Assembly: GCA_018396875.1 (NCBI GenBank)
Contig: JAGTQG010000001.1
Location: 13,077-77,076, forward strand
Direction: 5' to 3'
From: Candidatus Bathyarchaeota archaeon
GTDB lineage: Archaea > Thermoproteota > Bathyarchaeia > Bathyarchaeales > Bathycorpusculaceae
Length of the DNA stretch: 64,000 bases
The notes beneath the pieces are model-generated. The model did no database searches, was not told the DNA's origin, and saw only the letters and a list, made by a program, of their open reading frames with translations. Positions 57,185 through 64,000 of this stretch are shown here, in pieces; position 1 is the stretch's first letter; each line of letters begins with the position of its first letter. The position numbers and the translations under genes were made by a program.

Positions 57185-59431
57185 ATGGAAATCAAAAAGA
57201 TCTTCACGAAAGAAAACTTTCTCAACACCCTTAAAAACATTGGAAAAATTCGACCTAAAACGGGTCACACATCAATTCTAACATCAACCGCGTTAATGTT
57301 AATCCTACTGATAGCTTTTGGGATAAGGCTCTTTCCAATGCGCTGGGAAATAGACCCAACAACCGGAAAATCAAACCTTTTACTCTCTGAGTTTGACCCG
57401 TACTTTCAATATCGCTTTACAAAGTACATAGTGGACAATGGTTTCCTAGCTTGGTTATGGTGGAATGACACACAACGTTGGTATCCACAAGGCTTTGAAG
57501 TGGCGAAAAAAGCTTATCCAGGACTACCCCTTACGGCAGCCTTCATTTATAAGATAATTTCCGCTTTAGGGGTAGGCATAGACCTCATGAGCTTCTGCTC
57601 GCTTTTCCCAGCGATAATGGGGATGTTGGCATGTCTTGCCATATACTTCTTAGGCAAAGACATAGGCGGCAGACCAGTGGGACTTTTAGCCGCCCTCTTC
57701 TTAGCCCTACACCCGTCCTACATCCAGCGTACATCGCTAGGCTTTTTTGACGACGAAACCGTTGGTATACTATCCCTAATAGCTTTCGCTTTCTTATTCT
57801 TGAGGGCAATTGAAGAAGATCGCCCTATAAGGTCAACAATAAAATATGCCCTTGCATCTGGAGCCATTTTAGGATACTTCTGCGCAAGTTGGGGTGCAGC
57901 CTTCTATCCCATAGGGCTCACCGCCCTTTTCGTCTTCATATTGCTGGTCATGAGAAGGTACACGCAGAGGCTTCTGTTAGTTTACAGCGTAACTTTTGGC
58001 TTGGGATTATTTATCGCCATAAACGTTCCATACCTCACACCTAATTACCTTACTTCCACGGCTGTTGTTGCAGTTGCTGGAGTTTTTAGCTTACTGGTTC
58101 TTGCTGAAATTTTAAATGCAATGCCAACACAGCGATGGAAAATCATAACTGTATTAATTTTTCTAGCATTAATTGTTGGAGGTTTCGCCTTTTTATGGCA
58201 AAGGGGACTAGTGCAAAGCTTAACTGGAAAGTTTCTTTCAGTTGTGAACCCATTTACACGAGCTGAATCCCCTCTTTACGAATCGGTGGCAGAGCATCGA
58301 ATTTCTGCGTGGGGCACCCTTTATTATGATCTTGGCATTGGGATAATATTCTTCATAATCGGCTTGTTCTTTGCTTGTGGAAACTTCAACAATAGAAATG
58401 TGTTTCTATTGGTTTTTGGTTTAACTTCACTTTATTTTGCATGTTCCATGGTGCGGTTACTTGTGCTTATGGCGCCAGCCTACAGCCTTTTAGTTGGTGT
58501 GGGCGTTAATGGATTGCTGAAACCTTTTGCTACTCTGATAAAAGAACCGCCCAAAATCAGCGTGAAGAAAAAGTTTGGACCAGTGTATGTTGGAAAAGAG
58601 TTCAGCGGCGCCGCCATATTCATGATATTTCTAATTTTGATGACAAGTGTGGCTTTTCCAATGCCTAGAGTTTACAGGCAAGTTTATACACCAACCACTA
58701 TATCGTCTGGAAGCCTCTCCCTAATACCAGACAGGCCGGTGCAAGAGTGGATAGATATGCTTTACTGGACTAGAACAAGACTGAATGCGACGACGGTTGT
58801 TTGCAGCTGGTGGGACTATGGGTACTGGCTAACCATAATGGGAAACGTTACAACCCTTGCAGACAACGCTACGGTGAACGGAACTCAAATACAGAACATT
58901 GGCTTTACATTCATGGCTAACGAGACACAGGCAATTAAAATGCTAAAGCGATACAACGCCGAGTACATACTCGTTTACACAACGATACGCACCGACGGAA
59001 GTTGGGCTGGCGCTGGCGGCGACGAGGGAAAATGGATTTGGATGGCTGCTATATCTGGAAAAGCTCGCGACCGTTTCATAAGCCAAGGGTTAATTTCTGA
59101 AGGTGAAATGTGGACCAGCGACCTTGAAGAGGTTAGGCAGAGGTTTGGAAACTACACTCTGGGCTGGCATTTCCTAGGAGACAAAAACAATAACAATAGG
59201 GTCGACAGCGATGAGCTCCAACCAACTCAGGGGCAAAACTCGACAATCTACAAGCTAATGCGCTACGCGGCAGAGCGATGGTTGCAGGAACGGGGACAGC
59301 TCACAACATTGTCAATTAGGCTTCAGTACTTCAGCGAAGCCTACATCGCGGGCTTGAATAACGCTCAAGGTTACGGTGGAATAGTTCCACTTGTCTGTCT
59401 TTACAAGATTAATTACCCGCCAGAACAGTGA
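57185..59431 (+). CDS. aglB: STT3/AglB oligosaccharyltransferase
   Basis: A 748-residue membrane glycosyltransferase. About 13 membrane helices span residues 25-490. The metal-binding motifs are EFDPYFQYR near residue 65 and FFDDETVG near residue 190, and the acceptor-binding VCSWWDYGYWLTI near residue 540 is the WWDYG motif of the soluble C-terminal domain. It transfers a lipid-linked oligosaccharide to Asn in N-x-S/T sequons on the cell-surface side. The next gene makes the first step of the lipid-linked glycan, and an OSTC-like protein is encoded 4 kb upstream, so N-glycosylation genes cluster here. Confidence 0.94.
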   Translation: MEIKKIFTKENFLNTLKNIGKIRPKTGHTSILTSTALMLILLIAFGIRLFPMRWEIDPTTGKSNLLLSEFDPYFQYRFTKYIVDNGFLAWLWWNDTQRWYPQGFEVAKKAYPGLPLTAAFIYKIISALGVGIDLMSFCSLFPAIMGMLACLAIYFLGKDIGGRPVGLLAALFLALHPSYIQRTSLGFFDDETVGILSLIAFAFLFLRAIEEDRPIRSTIKYALASGAILGYFCASWGAAFYPIGLTALFVFILLVMRRYTQRLLLVYSVTFGLGLFIAINVPYLTPNYLTSTAVVAVAGVFSLLVLAEILNAMPTQRWKIITVLIFLALIVGGFAFLWQRGLVQSLTGKFLSVVNPFTRAESPLYESVAEHRISAWGTLYYDLGIGIIFFIIGLFFACGNFNNRNVFLLVFGLTSLYFACSMVRLLVLMAPAYSLLVGVGVNGLLKPFATLIKEPPKISVKKKFGPVYVGKEFSGAAIFMIFLILMTSVAFPMPRVYRQVYTPTTISSGSLSLIPDRPVQEWIDMLYWTRTRLNATTVVCSWWDYGYWLTIMGNVTTLADNATVNGTQIQNIGFTFMANETQAIKMLKRYNAEYILVYTTIRTDGSWAGAGGDEGKWIWMAAISGKARDRFISQGLISEGEMWTSDLEEVRQRFGNYTLGWHFLGDKNNNNRVDSDELQPTQGQNSTIYKLMRYAAERWLQERGQLTTLSIRLQYFSEAYIAGLNNAQGYGGIVPLVCLYKINYPPEQ

Positions 59432-59447
59432 AAAAGGGCGAGAAGTC

Positions 59448-60320
59448 TTGTTTCCAAAAGTTCCGGATTATCATAAGCCGAATAAGCCGCTTGTTCCAAC
59501 GGGTTTAGGCGTTTTTTACGTGGTGGCAAGCGCCCTTTACCTTTTTATTTTACACTTATTTCTTGAAGGTGGTACTACAACCCCTAACAAAGCTTTAACT
59601 TTGGCGGTCTGCATCTTGTTCGGCGGTTTCATGGGTTTGCTTGACGACTGGATGGACTTGCGGTGGCGTTATAAGGCTTTTTTCCCGTTGATTGCAGCGA
59701 TCCCTCTCGTGGCTTTGGCGTATAGATTACATGTTCGCACAGCGATAACTATCCCGTTAATTGGCACTATAGATCTTGGAATTTACAACATCTATTACAT
59801 CGCAGTAATACCTTTGATTGTAACGGTCACCACAAATACTGTCAACCAGCTTGGAGGTTTAAATGGCTTGGAAACGGTTTGCCCAGCCATTGTTTTGATG
59901 GGGCTTATGATTTTGTCTGGGCAAAACGCCATTCTGTTAACTTTACCTTTGGCTGTCTGGTTGACGCTTGCATTCTTCAATTTTCAAGGCAAAATTTTTG
60001 TCGGTAATACGGGGTCTTTCGCAATTGGGATAACGTTAGCGGCTTTTGCGATAATTTCGGACTTAAAATGGTGTTTGCTAGTTTCGATTTTGCCCTACAT
60101 TTTCAATTCCTCGCTCATTTTGCTAAACTATTTCTTGTTCCGAGCAAAGGCAAACGTTATTTTTGACGGTGTAAGGCTTGTCTCTAATCATAGGCGAAGT
60201 TTGATAACTCTTATCACGTATAACCGACCCTTGACTGAGCGCCAGGTGGTCGTAATTGTTTCGCTTCTGGTGGCGGCGTCAACACTGGCGGCGGTGCTTG
60301 TTCAATTGTTTTTGTTCTAA
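59448..60320 (+). CDS. Alg7/MraY-like UDP-sugar:polyprenyl-phosphate sugar-1-phosphate transferase
   Basis: About 290 residues with eight to nine membrane helices. Motifs typical of GPT/Alg7 are PDYHKPNKPLVPTG at the N-terminus, GLLDDWMDLRWRYK near residue 65, NQLGGLNGLE near residue 140, GKIFVGNTGSFAIG near residue 175 and VSNHRRSLITL near residue 235. It would transfer GlcNAc-1-phosphate, or a related sugar, from a UDP donor to dolichyl or polyprenyl phosphate, starting the glycan used by STT3. The frame is open from 59391, overlapping aglB, but the first 19 residues are unlike the family; TTG 59448 looks better. The usual first membrane helix is then absent. Confidence 0.86.
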   Translation: MFPKVPDYHKPNKPLVPTGLGVFYVVASALYLFILHLFLEGGTTTPNKALTLAVCILFGGFMGLLDDWMDLRWRYKAFFPLIAAIPLVALAYRLHVRTAITIPLIGTIDLGIYNIYYIAVIPLIVTVTTNTVNQLGGLNGLETVCPAIVLMGLMILSGQNAILLTLPLAVWLTLAFFNFQGKIFVGNTGSFAIGITLAAFAIISDLKWCLLVSILPYIFNSSLILLNYFLFRAKANVIFDGVRLVSNHRRSLITLITYNRPLTERQVVVIVSLLVAASTLAAVLVQLFLF

Positions 60321-60479: not shown

Positions 60480-60911
60480 GTGGAAGTCACCAGCATCATA
60501 GGGGTTAAACTGGACTCAAAAGGCGGAGCTGGCGCAGTAAATTTTGAGGTTAAGGCGAAGCTTGAAGAGAAAGAGCGGAAAAGCCAAATGGTCGTCGTTG
60601 GTTTCTCTCTCCAACTGAACACGAAGCCGGGCATCGTAAAGTTTGAAATTGAAGGAAACGCCACTTTAACTGGCAAGGAGACTGAAATAAACAAGATGTT
60701 GGAGGTTGACCCTGAAACAAAATTGCCCTACGTTTTCCAAAAGGTTTACCAACACACATTCACAGCAATGTATCTTTTATCAACAATATTGAATACGCCT
60801 CCGCCGCCAGTAGACCTCTTGCTTTTCGGCAGAGAGAGTACGCCCACAGAAAACATGGAACTGACTTCAGAAGAAGCTAAAACCGTTGAAGAATCCAAGT
60901 CTGAAGCATAG
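60480..60911 (+). CDS. SecB-fold-like archaeal protein
   Basis: A 143-residue protein. The N-terminal half is beta-rich (NFEVKAKLEEKERKSQMVVVGFSLQLN). Then come PGIVKFEIEGNATLTGKE, a helix with EINKML, a LPYVFQKVYQH segment and a helix ending in TPPPPVDLL. Bacterial SecB has the same order near its C-terminus (an FxLxGxxxEE strand, a Pro-Tyr-x-R helix opening, then a GG(F)PPLLL end), and SecB-like proteins exist in some archaea. This would make it a chaperone for unfolded chains. The tail is acidic. The start is a GTG with no clear ribosome-binding site, and the frame stays open upstream to 60426, so the true start is uncertain. Confidence 0.48.
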   Translation: MEVTSIIGVKLDSKGGAGAVNFEVKAKLEEKERKSQMVVVGFSLQLNTKPGIVKFEIEGNATLTGKETEINKMLEVDPETKLPYVFQKVYQHTFTAMYLLSTILNTPPPPVDLLLFGRESTPTENMELTSEEAKTVEESKSEA

Positions 60912-60933
60912 CCTTAAAGCGTTTTAGGAAGAG

Positions 60934-60940
60934 TTTTATA
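60934..60940 (+). promoter_or_regulatory. TATA box of the queT transcript
   Basis: ttttata centred at 60937 predicts transcription from about 60962, that is, exactly at the first pairing bases of the structured leader. Only 20 bases separate it from the SecB-like stop codon. Confidence 0.5.
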
Positions 60941-60960
60941 GCTCTTTGCTGGTTTTTGTT

Positions 60961-61030
60961 GTTTGTCGGCGGGTGAGTGGGGCCTCCCACCCGTTCCGCC
61001 ATACAAACCCCGGTGTAGGGAGGTGAAAAA
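60961..61030 (+). promoter_or_regulatory. Structured leader of queT, candidate riboswitch
   Basis: The 70-base leader can form one long arm: GTTTGT/ACAAAC (60961-60966 with 61003-61008), GGCGG/CCGCC (60968-60972 with 60996-61000) and GTGGG/CCCAC (60977-60981 with 60986-60990), with an internal loop of four and five bases and a four-base tip. The Shine-Dalgarno GGGAGG (61018-61023) is perfectly complementary to CCTCCC (60983-60988) at the tip, and CGGGTG/CACCCG (60970-60975 with 60988-60993) offers a competing fold that frees CCTCC. Two exclusive states controlling translation of a 7-deazaguanine transporter suggest a ligand-sensing RNA. I know no archaeal riboswitch of this shape. Confidence 0.5.
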
Positions 61031-61528
61031 TTGAAGTTTAAAAGTGAAGATGTGGCTTTGACAGCCGTTTTTGCCGCGTTCTACGCTGCTGGAGTTGTTT
61101 TCTTAACGCCCATAAGCTTCGAAGTTTTTCAATTGAGGGTGGCTGATGCGTTGTTGCCATTGGCTGTTGTCTTCGGATTGCCAGTGGCTCTTGGAACAAG
61201 TTTTGGTTGTTTCATTGCAAACTTTTATGGCGGTTTAGGCCTTGTCGACGTTGTTGGTGGCGCCTTTGCAAACTTTGTCGCGTGCGTCTTGGCATGGCGC
61301 ATTGGTGAGAAAACAGTCCTGCGCAGGTTTACATCTTGCCTTGCAGAAACAGCTGTTGTAACACTAGTCGTGGGAAGTTACTTGTCTGTGCTCCTTAATG
61401 TGCCAATAGAGATTAGTTTACTTGGCATTTTCTTGGGCTCTATAGTTGCAATAAACATTCTAGGCTTCGGTCTTCTAGAAGCATTGTATCGAAGCGGTGT
61501 AGCAAAAAGGTTCGTAGAAAGAGGCTAA
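61031..61528 (+). CDS. queT: QueT family transporter (queuosine/archaeosine precursor)
   Basis: A 165-residue protein with about five membrane helices. The N-terminal LTAVFAAFYAAGVVFLTPISFEVFQLRVADALLPLAVVFG (landmarks in pieces: FQLRVADALLPLA) and ANFYGGLGLVDVVGGAFAN match the QueT family (PF06177), an ECF-type S component linked with queuosine in bacteria. In archaea the likely cargo is preQ0 or another precursor of archaeosine in tRNA. The start is TTG 61031 with GGGAGGTG upstream, and a structured leader precedes it. The A/T modules of an ECF complex are not in the window. Confidence 0.85.
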   Translation: MKFKSEDVALTAVFAAFYAAGVVFLTPISFEVFQLRVADALLPLAVVFGLPVALGTSFGCFIANFYGGLGLVDVVGGAFANFVACVLAWRIGEKTVLRRFTSCLAETAVVTLVVGSYLSVLLNVPIEISLLGIFLGSIVAINILGFGLLEALYRSGVAKRFVERG

Positions 61529-61535
61529 CGTTTCC

Positions 61536-64000
61536 TCACATGAAGCGTTCCAGTTTTGTCAACCCAATTATTTCTTCGAAGTCTAAGCCTAACGCGTCTA
61601 GGACTTGGTCGAAGGTGGAATGCAGATAGGCTATGTATTTGTCCACGTCTATCTCGTTTTTTGTTGCCAGCTCAACAGGCTTTACGTGAGGTTCGTTAAC
61701 GACCTTCACAAAACTTATGAGGTCACCTGCTTTGAGTTCTATTCCACTATCTTTGAGGATTTTTGCTGCCTTCACATGTTGTGGCGTTGTTTTTGTGTAG
61801 CGTTCAAGTTCCTCGCCCAAGACTACGTTGAAGGCAAGCTCGTCCAAGCTTTCCCATTCTCGTCTTTTCAGGCGGAAGTAGCAGTCTCGAATTATTTGTA
61901 TTATTTCTTTTTTCGCCTTTTCAAAGTCTGCAGGGTTTTTCACGGTGGCTAATTGTTCCTTCATTTTGTCGAAAGCCTTTTTGATGAATATGGGTATGTG
62001 ACGTTTCTTGCCAGTCAAGCCTTTCACGTCAACGCTTCCGTCCTCCAAAACGCCTAGATAGTTCTTTTTGCGGGAGCTGAAAACCGCGTAGCGGTAAACC
62101 TTGTCCACGTCCAAGCCCATTTTAAGCGTTTTTTCAGCCCAATCTTCAAGAGCTTGTATCTGTTCCCTTGTAGGGTTTTTTAGGAAGACACTGTCGGTGT
62201 CGCCGTAAAGCACTTGAATGCCTAGCTCCTCCGCCTTCTTGATTATTTGGGTTATAGAGTGTCTGCCCACAGCAGCGGTGGCTTCAGCCACTGGTGGACA
62301 GTAGAGGTCGAAGGTTTCTGCACCGAAAACTCCGTAACTGGCGTTCAAAATCACTTTCAAAGCACCTTGGATTATGTTGTACCAGCTTCTAAGCTCCGGC
62401 GGTAAAGTCTTATCCTTTGATTTGGGCTTGTACCAGTAAACCCGCAGGTCTCGCAACGCGCCTATTAACAGGCTTTCTAAAGCGCGTTTTTTACGGCAAA
62501 CCCAGTGGGGGGTGTCTGGCACAAGGTTTGACCGGCATTCTGGATGACTGCACAAAATTGACTGATAGCCTAGGTTCCAAACTTTTATTATGGATGGGTA
62601 TAGGCTTGGGAAGTCCATTACGGCTACGTTGAAGTGAACGCCTGGCACGGGTTCGACAACTATGGCGCCTTTGTACTTTTTGCCCTTGATTATGGCTTTT
62701 GTGGCTGTTTTGCCTTTTAAGGCTAGGATGTCTTCCGCGTTTGGAATCAGCATGCCTTTTCGACGGTGTTCGCGGTGCATAAAGTTTCTTATCCAGCGTG
62801 AGACACCTTGTCGGCTCACGTCTTCCATGGGCATGCTGCTTATCCTAGCCAAAACAAGGATCAACTTCAAAACAAGCTCGTCGTCGAAGCTTGTAAGCTT
62901 GTAGGCGATCTCCGCGTCTCTGAAACAGTATTTGGCAAGTTCTGTGTAGGTTAATTCTCCTATACTCTTTTCCAGCGGTATTTTGTCCAAGCCTACTAGG
63001 GCTTTTCCAACATCGCCTAAAGTGACGTCGCGGTAGCGGTTGTTGAAGGCGTAGATTTGAATGGAACGGTTAAAGAAGAACTTGTAAAGGTCTATGTGCA
63101 CGCCGTATTTCAGCAGGCAAACGCGTTTGCCGAGTTCTATTGGGATTTCATCCCTTTTGAAGCCGAATTTTTCTGCTCTATGCGCTAAATACCGCAGGTC
63201 AAAGTCGTCGCCGTTGAAGGTGATGATGAATGGGTAATCCCACAAGACGTCAAAAACAGCTTTCATTAACGCTTCTTCAGAATCGTAAAACTCCATTTTA
63301 ACATCTGCAGGCAAACGTTCCGTGCCTTCACGCACACCCACACGTTTTAAAAGGAGCACCCGTTTCTGCCCGTCTGAACCATAAACTGAAACGCAGACTA
63401 TGGGGTATTCTGCGACGCGGGGGTCTGGCATACGCGTAGGGATCGGTGACTGCACTTCAATGTCTATGGCGGCGTAGCGAAACCTTGGCGCCGGATACTC
63501 CAACAGCCTAGCCCACTGTTCAATGTATTCAAGCTCTTCGGCGTTCGCGTCCTTAAACGTGCCGACAATTTGCTTGACCATCTTTTCAGCTTCATCCAAA
63601 AATGTTTGAACAAGACTGCCGTTCTTAACTTCGTAAACCATGCCCGGCAAAAGCCCACGGTCATAAATGTAGGATTGGTAATACTTTATTTTGGCTTCCC
63701 AAACCTTAATGGACTCAGCTGGCACTGGCACAACCTTCGGAAAATCTTCCGGAATGATGTCCCTAATACAGCCTTTTGGGCGTCCGCCAATAGCCAACGG
63801 ATCTTTAGCCACAACTTTTGTAACAGTGACTGTTTTGTCCATAAGGGGGTTATATTTTTCCTCAATTTCAAAGTGGTCGAAGCCGGGATGCTTAACCAAC
63901 CGGTCAATTTTTTCCAACTCAAGAGGTGAAAGGTTCGTGTAGCAGTATGGCTTATGTCCAGTGTTATCGTACCAAAAATAGATCCGCCCAGAAACAGGCT
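61536..64000 (-). CDS. polB: Family-B DNA polymerase, 5' end outside window
   Basis: The frame is open from a stop at 61536 to the window edge; the TTG at 63917 is internal, because upstream codons continue with GRIYFWYDNTGHKPY, a typical PolB N-domain strand. The 821 visible residues hold the proofreading motifs ExoI (AAIDIEVQS), ExoII (TFNGDDFDLRYL) and ExoIII (YCFRDAEIAY), and the polymerase motifs A (DFPSLYPSI), B (KVILNASYGVFG) and C (YGDTDSVF). Both activities appear intact. The thumb (KHVKAAKIL) follows. It would be a replicative or repair polymerase of the PolB1/PolB3 kind; I cannot decide which. Confidence 0.95.
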   Translation of the reverse strand, partial: PVSGRIYFWYDNTGHKPYCYTNLSPLELEKIDRLVKHPGFDHFEIEEKYNPLMDKTVTVTKVVAKDPLAIGGRPKGCIRDIIPEDFPKVVPVPAESIKVWEAKIKYYQSYIYDRGLLPGMVYEVKNGSLVQTFLDEAEKMVKQIVGTFKDANAEELEYIEQWARLLEYPAPRFRYAAIDIEVQSPIPTRMPDPRVAEYPIVCVSVYGSDGQKRVLLLKRVGVREGTERLPADVKMEFYDSEEALMKAVFDVLWDYPFIITFNGDDFDLRYLAHRAEKFGFKRDEIPIELGKRVCLLKYGVHIDLYKFFFNRSIQIYAFNNRYRDVTLGDVGKALVGLDKIPLEKSIGELTYTELAKYCFRDAEIAYKLTSFDDELVLKLILVLARISSMPMEDVSRQGVSRWIRNFMHREHRRKGMLIPNAEDILALKGKTATKAIIKGKKYKGAIVVEPVPGVHFNVAVMDFPSLYPSIIKVWNLGYQSILCSHPECRSNLVPDTPHWVCRKKRALESLLIGALRDLRVYWYKPKSKDKTLPPELRSWYNIIQGALKVILNASYGVFGAETFDLYCPPVAEATAAVGRHSITQIIKKAEELGIQVLYGDTDSVFLKNPTREQIQALEDWAEKTLKMGLDVDKVYRYAVFSSRKKNYLGVLEDGSVDVKGLTGKKRHIPIFIKKAFDKMKEQLATVKNPADFEKAKKEIIQIIRDCYFRLKRREWESLDELAFNVVLGEELERYTKTTPQHVKAAKILKDSGIELKAGDLISFVKVVNEPHVKPVELATKNEIDVDKYIAYLHSTFDQVLDALGLDFEEIIGLTKLERFM

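Follow-up and report, generated by a model that had tools for sequence, protein, structure and literature searches.

The stretch of DNA considered here raises the question of whether an archaeal queT gene is controlled by a riboswitch in its own leader. In the window, that is, the whole 64,000-nucleotide stretch of a Candidatus Bathyarchaeota archaeon genome that was analysed, queT occupies positions 61031-61528 of the forward strand, starts with a TTG codon at 61031 and encodes a protein of 165 aa that matches the Pfam family PF06177 (QueT) with E=5.8e-26. A sequence-only reading had proposed that the tip of a hairpin in the leader pairs with the Shine-Dalgarno (SD) sequence to form a pseudoknot or an alternative stem under the control of a 7-deazaguanine. 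The underlying observation is real, and its interpretation as a riboswitch is supported by covariation and gene links, with both ligand binding and control being only inferred. Thus, the leader is likely to be a cis-acting riboswitch that controls translation in response to a 7-deazaguanine base, most probably preQ0, where the binding of the ligand, its identity and the off direction of the switch are inferences.

As for the surroundings of the locus, queT and an unassigned 143-aa open reading frame stand downstream of the genes for an oligosaccharyl transferase (STT3/AglB) and then a family-4 glycosyl transferase (57185-60317, forward strand). On the other side, a family B DNA polymerase gene (61536-63917, reverse strand) is convergent with queT, and the end of this polymerase gene also adjoins queT in several relatives (L002-L004, L009, L011).

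Motif A and its conservation among relatives

The elements of the promoter and leader, together with the evidence for each, are as follows:

60934-60940, forward strand: queT promoter TATA box (TTTTATA) lying 34-28 nt before P1, with TATA matches in relatives
-39 to -37 relative to P1: A-rich BRE-like stretch in the promoters of relatives (promoter comparison)
60961-60966, forward strand: 5' strand GUUUGU of a lower helix, pairing with ACAAAC at 61003-61008 (fold; lineage-specific, near the predicted transcription start)
60968-60972, forward strand: 5' strand GGCGG of P1 (covariation in aligned relatives)
60973-60976, forward strand: internal-loop nucleotides GUGA, candidate pocket (conservation: GU 99-100%, G 90%, A 87%)
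60977-60981, forward strand: 5' strand GUGGG of P2 (fold; innermost pair with a G-C/A-U double change)
60983-60988, forward strand: anti-SD CCUCCC, located at the tip of the hairpin and forming the 5' side of pseudoknot P3 (covaries with the SD across families)
60986-60990, forward strand: 3' strand CCCAC of P2 (fold)
60991-60995, forward strand: internal-loop nucleotides CCGUU, candidate pocket (alignment columns 44-49 conserved 95-100%)
60996-61000, forward strand: 3' strand CCGCC of P1 (covariation in aligned relatives)
61001-61013, forward strand: linker rich in A, followed by the tail AAA-C-CCCGG, possibly in tertiary contact with the loops (conservation)
61018-61023, forward strand: SD GGGAGG, 3' partner of pseudoknot P3 (covaries with the tip)

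The conserved part, referred to as motif A, measures about 55 nt and has its core at 60968-61023, ahead of queT. Within it, the anti-SD (60983-60988) and the 3' strand of P2 overlap, the CCC being common to both. Taken on its own, the sequence of the window proves little, its fold energy being only mildly better than that of shuffled sequences (z -1.96, with 5 of 200 shuffles as good), and relatives were therefore compared.

Several claims of the sequence-only reading can be judged at this point. The three helices of 6, 5 and 5 bp over 48 nt (60961-61008) are all present, and CCTCCC (60983-60988) and GGGAGG (61018-61023) are perfect complements. The outer 6-bp helix (GUUUGU:ACAAAC) exists in the window but is local to its lineage and cannot be considered a general part of the motif, as P1 is extended by only 0-2 bp in 86 of 95 copies (mean 1.1 bp). 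Likewise, CGGGTG (60970-60975) and CACCCG (60988-60993) do exist, but their proposed pairing as a switch that exposes the SD failed, since it is not conserved among relatives: its covariation is not clearly above that of shuffles, one of its pairs is broken in 14 sequences, and the GGCGC variants disrupt it. A local CCCC:GGG hairpin at the SD was also considered as a conserved element and was not adopted, with merely 2 bp being consistent.

The first leader comparison came from the QueT orthologues of the window's own family, which have in common the core GGCGGGUGAGUGG-tip-ACCCGUUCCGCC-(A-rich)-AAA[C/A/U]CCCGG-(G)GGAGG. A pattern scan of named genomes located the motif in metagenome-assembled genomes (MAGs) of Bathyarchaeota, Methanomethylicota and Nitrososphaerota, and 42 of these copies served to build the covariance model R1; the window sequence is included in this model, whose score for the window is consequently not independent evidence. 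Of the 257 genomes of the class, 186 are matched by R1, as are 79 of 398 genomes sampled across the phylum. Another archaeal phylum, represented by 345 genomes, gave three weak matches, which lie inside reading frames and are likely due to chance. The loose DNA pattern also has numerous bacterial matches, which were dismissed as fortuitous because none of 40 bacterial or halophile genomes with such a chance pattern match is matched by R1. Viral contigs gave 36 pattern matches, two of them with a nearby CCCGG that lacks the remainder of the tail, and these too look like chance.

Most of the relatives are MAGs. A rare variant with the tip UUUCCG and the SD region CGGAAAA occurs in near-identical form in two genomes of different families (L258 in G298 and L269 in G134), a likeness for which transfer or contamination of one assembly is a possible explanation.

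Covariation within this set supports both P1 and the pseudoknot. The alignment used for P1 has 104 distinct rows. Standard base pairs occupy 98.4% of the aligned cells of P1 (GGCGG:CCGCC), its 28 double-sided changes compare with a shuffled mean of 4.5, and controls with a slid partner are only 42-66% paired; for instance, relatives carry the variants GGCGC:GCGCC, AGCGG:CCGCU, GACGG:CCGUC, UGCGG:CCGCA and CGCGG:CCGCG. As for P3, in 21 of 23 families the tip is more complementary to the family's own SD than the cross-family mean (sign test 7e-5). When each family was reduced to one representative, permutation yielded p about 0.0005-0.001. The most telling co-changes are UUUCCGAC:GUCGGAAA, UGCUCCGU:ACGGAGCG, UCAUCUCC:GGAGAUGA and CCCUCU:AGAGGG, in which the usual SD has been abandoned, and to these can be added GCCCUCCU:AGGAGGGC. 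Neither of the two covariation tests involves an explicit tree model.

Some unpaired positions rank among the best conserved of the alignment, namely the GU after P1 and the GUU before the 3' strand of P1 (95-100%). Linker and tail are similarly constant among the aligned copies (AAA 100%, CCC 99-100%, GG 98-99%), and a divergent group of copies has AA in place of the tail GG. Such conserved unpaired nucleotides are the signature that would be expected of a ligand pocket; it is nevertheless important to stress that this is an inference and not proof, no binding data being at hand.

Over the 96 copies compared, TATA-like elements are concentrated 28-35 nt upstream of P1, and about 60 copies have their best match at 29-35 nt. 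The usual spacing between TATA box and start is about 25 nt. With the element kept at this distance, transcription should therefore begin shortly before the motif, and the transcript start of the window's queT is inferred to lie at about 60960. The claim that a TATA box sets the start of transcription at the stem is thus supported, and a start downstream of the stem, which would refute the sequence-only reading, is not what the TATA placement predicts, a start just before the motif being inferred from it. The compensatory changes for which that reading had proposed to search were found in the P1 helix as well as in the pseudoknot between tip and SD.

Genes that follow motif A

When considered from the point of view of the genes it precedes, motif A is bound to a narrow set of functions. 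Among 98 inspected copies, 87 stand directly before queT, three before queC, two before queE and five before a gene for a membrane protein of ~230 aa, with one (L301) truncated by a contig end; in other words, 97 of the 97 classifiable copies precede queT, queC, queE or a single unknown family of membrane proteins. For 86 copies, queT was called by a match to a QueT profile built here, and in L269 queT lies in another frame. The queE cases (L052 and L100) are QueE-like radical SAM proteins with QueC next to them, which in L100 is a GATase-QueC fusion. The queC cases are L302, L308 and L303, the last of them recognised by its reading frame. Gene order in these three loci (L303 in G062, L302 in G060, L308 in G059) is motif-queC-queT, and many other family members have the order motif-queT-queC.

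Across the class, the motif is present in 174 of 198 genomes with queT versus 12 of 59 without it (Fisher p 2e-22, uncorrected for phylogeny). Eleven of these 12 genomes belong to one family, f10, and the f10 genomes examined (G096, G099, G104, G110 and G106) have the motif before the ~230-aa membrane protein in five cases out of five (L291, L323, L252, L246 and L360); the same protein also follows the motif in L244. It has no Pfam or NCBIfam match, and queT is not detectable in the f10 genomes that bear it after the motif. The idea that it could be a distant QueT was rejected, as just 26 N-terminal residues align and neither database gives a match. Its position after the motif in f10 genomes without queT therefore makes it a candidate replacement importer of 7-deazaguanines, a role that is inferred and for now no more than possible.

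Taken together, the conserved RNA, the covariation of P1 and P3, the placement of the promoter and the association with these genes are shown.

Proposed ligand, mechanism and rival explanations

The linkage with queT, queC and queE makes a sensor of 7-deazaguanines the natural reading. The linked genes converge on preQ0, which is produced by QueE and QueC, and archaeal TGT uses preQ0 (PMC11298593). The window's own genome (93.8% complete) contains a TGT gene and has no full-length QueC match, the best partial one reaching E 4e-6; from the presence of TGT without a full-length QueC, it is inferred that this organism probably imports the base. Bacterial QueT reportedly transports preQ1 (PMC11625349), and preQ1 or another derivative therefore remains possible as the sensed base.

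In the proposed mechanism, transcription would begin just upstream of P1, which carries an internal loop composed of the near-invariant GUGA and CCGUU and is followed by hairpin P2; the tip of P2 bears the anti-SD, and a linker ending in the near-invariant AAA-C-CCCGG runs to the SD. When plentiful, the ligand would be bound by the conserved loops and the tail, stabilising pseudoknot P3 between tip and SD, so that ribosome binding would be blocked and the importer or biosynthetic enzyme would not be made. When the ligand is scarce, P2 would reclaim the common CCC and leave the SD free. In the window lineage, the competition of P2 and P3 may thus amount to a simple two-state switch; RNAfold prefers P2 over P3 there, and it cannot score pseudoknots. 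This competition would not be universal, as P2 and P3 are predicted, from sequence alone, to be able to coexist in divergent copies (e.g., L258 and L264). Against the riboswitch reading as a whole stands the absence of ligand-binding, probing or expression data, and it is conceivable that a protein recognises the same leader.

The best-surviving rival is built on this last point: the leader would be the site of a repressor protein (a transglycosylase, for example, or some other RNA-binding protein) that would hold the tip:SD pseudoknot together and sense 7-deazaguanines only indirectly. Control by a protein would also be consistent with a conserved leader whose SD is paired, and leaders of archaeal ribosomal-protein genes do exist (PMC7247131). 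However, the near-invariant nucleotides are located in the internal loop and the tail and not in one hairpin alone, the compact layout of a pseudoknot that includes the SD matches known preQ1 riboswitches, and the motif precedes unrelated genes of one pathway and no regulator gene. This explanation is thus considered unlikely.

Less credible still, and in our judgement very improbable, is that motif A represents a highly divergent preQ1 riboswitch of class II or III that was brought into archaea. In favour of it, preQ1-II (COG4708/queT RNA, RF01054) is also found before queT, has a similar size (~55-60 nt) and uses its hairpin loop to pair with the SD in an HL-out pseudoknot, as the tip:SD covariation shows for motif A; preQ1-II is a translational off-switch (PMC11625349). 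This common pairing means the same mode of action and is not proof of kinship. Against the rival, the Rfam models of preQ1-I (RF00522), preQ1-II and preQ1-III (RF02680) have no match in the window at the gathering threshold, and none of the preQ1 families matches 60880-61100 (221 nt) at E up to 10, in agreement with the earlier remark that the shape differs from the preQ1 classes. In the leaders of relatives, no Rfam family is matched either, preQ1-I/II/III included. Moreover, no hairpin equal to P4 of preQ1-II is conserved between P1 and the SD in the alignments of motif A, this segment being made of the A-rich linker and AAA-C-CCCGG, and the conserved core (GUGAGUGG, ACCCGUU, AAA-C-CCCGG) differs from that of preQ1-II and is not recognised as any known class. 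In addition, preQ1-II is reported only from Bacillota, whereas motif A is archaeal.

The remaining classes are further away. PreQ1-III also precedes queT and docks an anti-SD in a hairpin loop with a downstream SD, but it spans ~100 nt and consists of a separate aptamer pseudoknot plus a docking P4 domain, in contrast to the one compact domain of motif A. PreQ1-I, a regulator of bacterial queT genes and que operons, has an A-rich linker before the pseudoknot partner as well; however, it is an H-type knot with a P1 of ~5 bp and without an inner hairpin, unlike motif A. Motif A is therefore likely to be a structural variant outside the known preQ1 classes, with its layout nearest to preQ1-II.

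Finally, a structured leader without any small-molecule ligand (an RNA thermometer, a stability element or a simple translational attenuator) can be all but ruled out: SD pairing by itself could tune translation, and some hosts may live at elevated temperature, but loop and tail nucleotides are conserved at 95-100% across families, beyond the needs of pairing, and the genes that the element precedes include several from one metabolic pathway.

Significance and other queT leaders

If the reading as a 7-deazaguanine riboswitch is retained, a bolder version of it is that motif A constitutes a separate preQ0-specific class in Bathyarchaeia and related archaea, which would regulate the import and synthesis of the archaeosine precursor and single out the ~230-aa membrane protein as another importer of preQ0 in genomes that lack QueT; the evidence tips the balance in its favour by a small margin. 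Few riboswitch classes are known from archaea. In the literature searched, no sensor of 7-deazaguanines backed by broad comparison is reported from archaea, the nearest suggestion being sRk28 of Pyrococcus abyssi, an archaeal RNA of 70 nt located beside a QueC-domain gene, with a proposed pseudoknot, which its authors likened to preQ1 riboswitches (PMC3124441). It was found again, as an orphan transcript, in Thermococcus kodakarensis (PMC4247193) and, unlike motif A, is known only from Thermococcales. Motif A shows strong covariation, is carried by the majority of the genomes sampled from a class that is largely uncultured, and leads to a direct biochemical prediction, namely that an RNA of ~60 nt should bind preQ0. 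If this proves true, motif A would join preQ1-I, II and III as one more structural way of sensing 7-deazaguanines, archaea would regulate the supply of the archaeosine precursor through RNA, and the motif would point to an unknown transporter family.

Motif A is not the only leader found before queT. In the window's family, four genomes with queT but without motif A (G005, G008, G015 and G016) carry motif B, GUAG-UUUCCG-UANNUAAC-CUAC-(A-rich)-CCGG, which is also found upstream of queT in two further families (L348 and L359), three families of the class overall; the remaining loci are L012, L013, L014, L015 and L017, which are the same places as L335-L339. Its loop UUUCCG and the SD region, which in some cases reads CGGAAG or CGGGAG, are complementary. 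Motif B has no Rfam match, yet it resembles the H-type pseudoknot of preQ1-I far more than motif A does, being alike in P1, in the loop position of the pseudoknot strand, in the AC before the 3' strand of P1 and in the A-rich tail. Replacement of motif A by motif B before queT in some relatives would parallel the presence of several preQ1 classes before bacterial queT.

In G028, a further genome of the window's family, which has a weaker QueT match, neither motif A nor motif B was found. A third, longer structured queT leader (~100 nt), again without an Rfam match, is seen in L343 (G166), L346 (G172) and possibly L352 (G212), and comprises a GGCGGG-UGAG-CCGCC hairpin, followed by ACCCC...GGGGAAAUC and a strong hairpin before the start. 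Family f25 likewise has queT without motif A (L355-L358), and in three of these four loci queT comes immediately after a tRNA gene that has a long variable arm.
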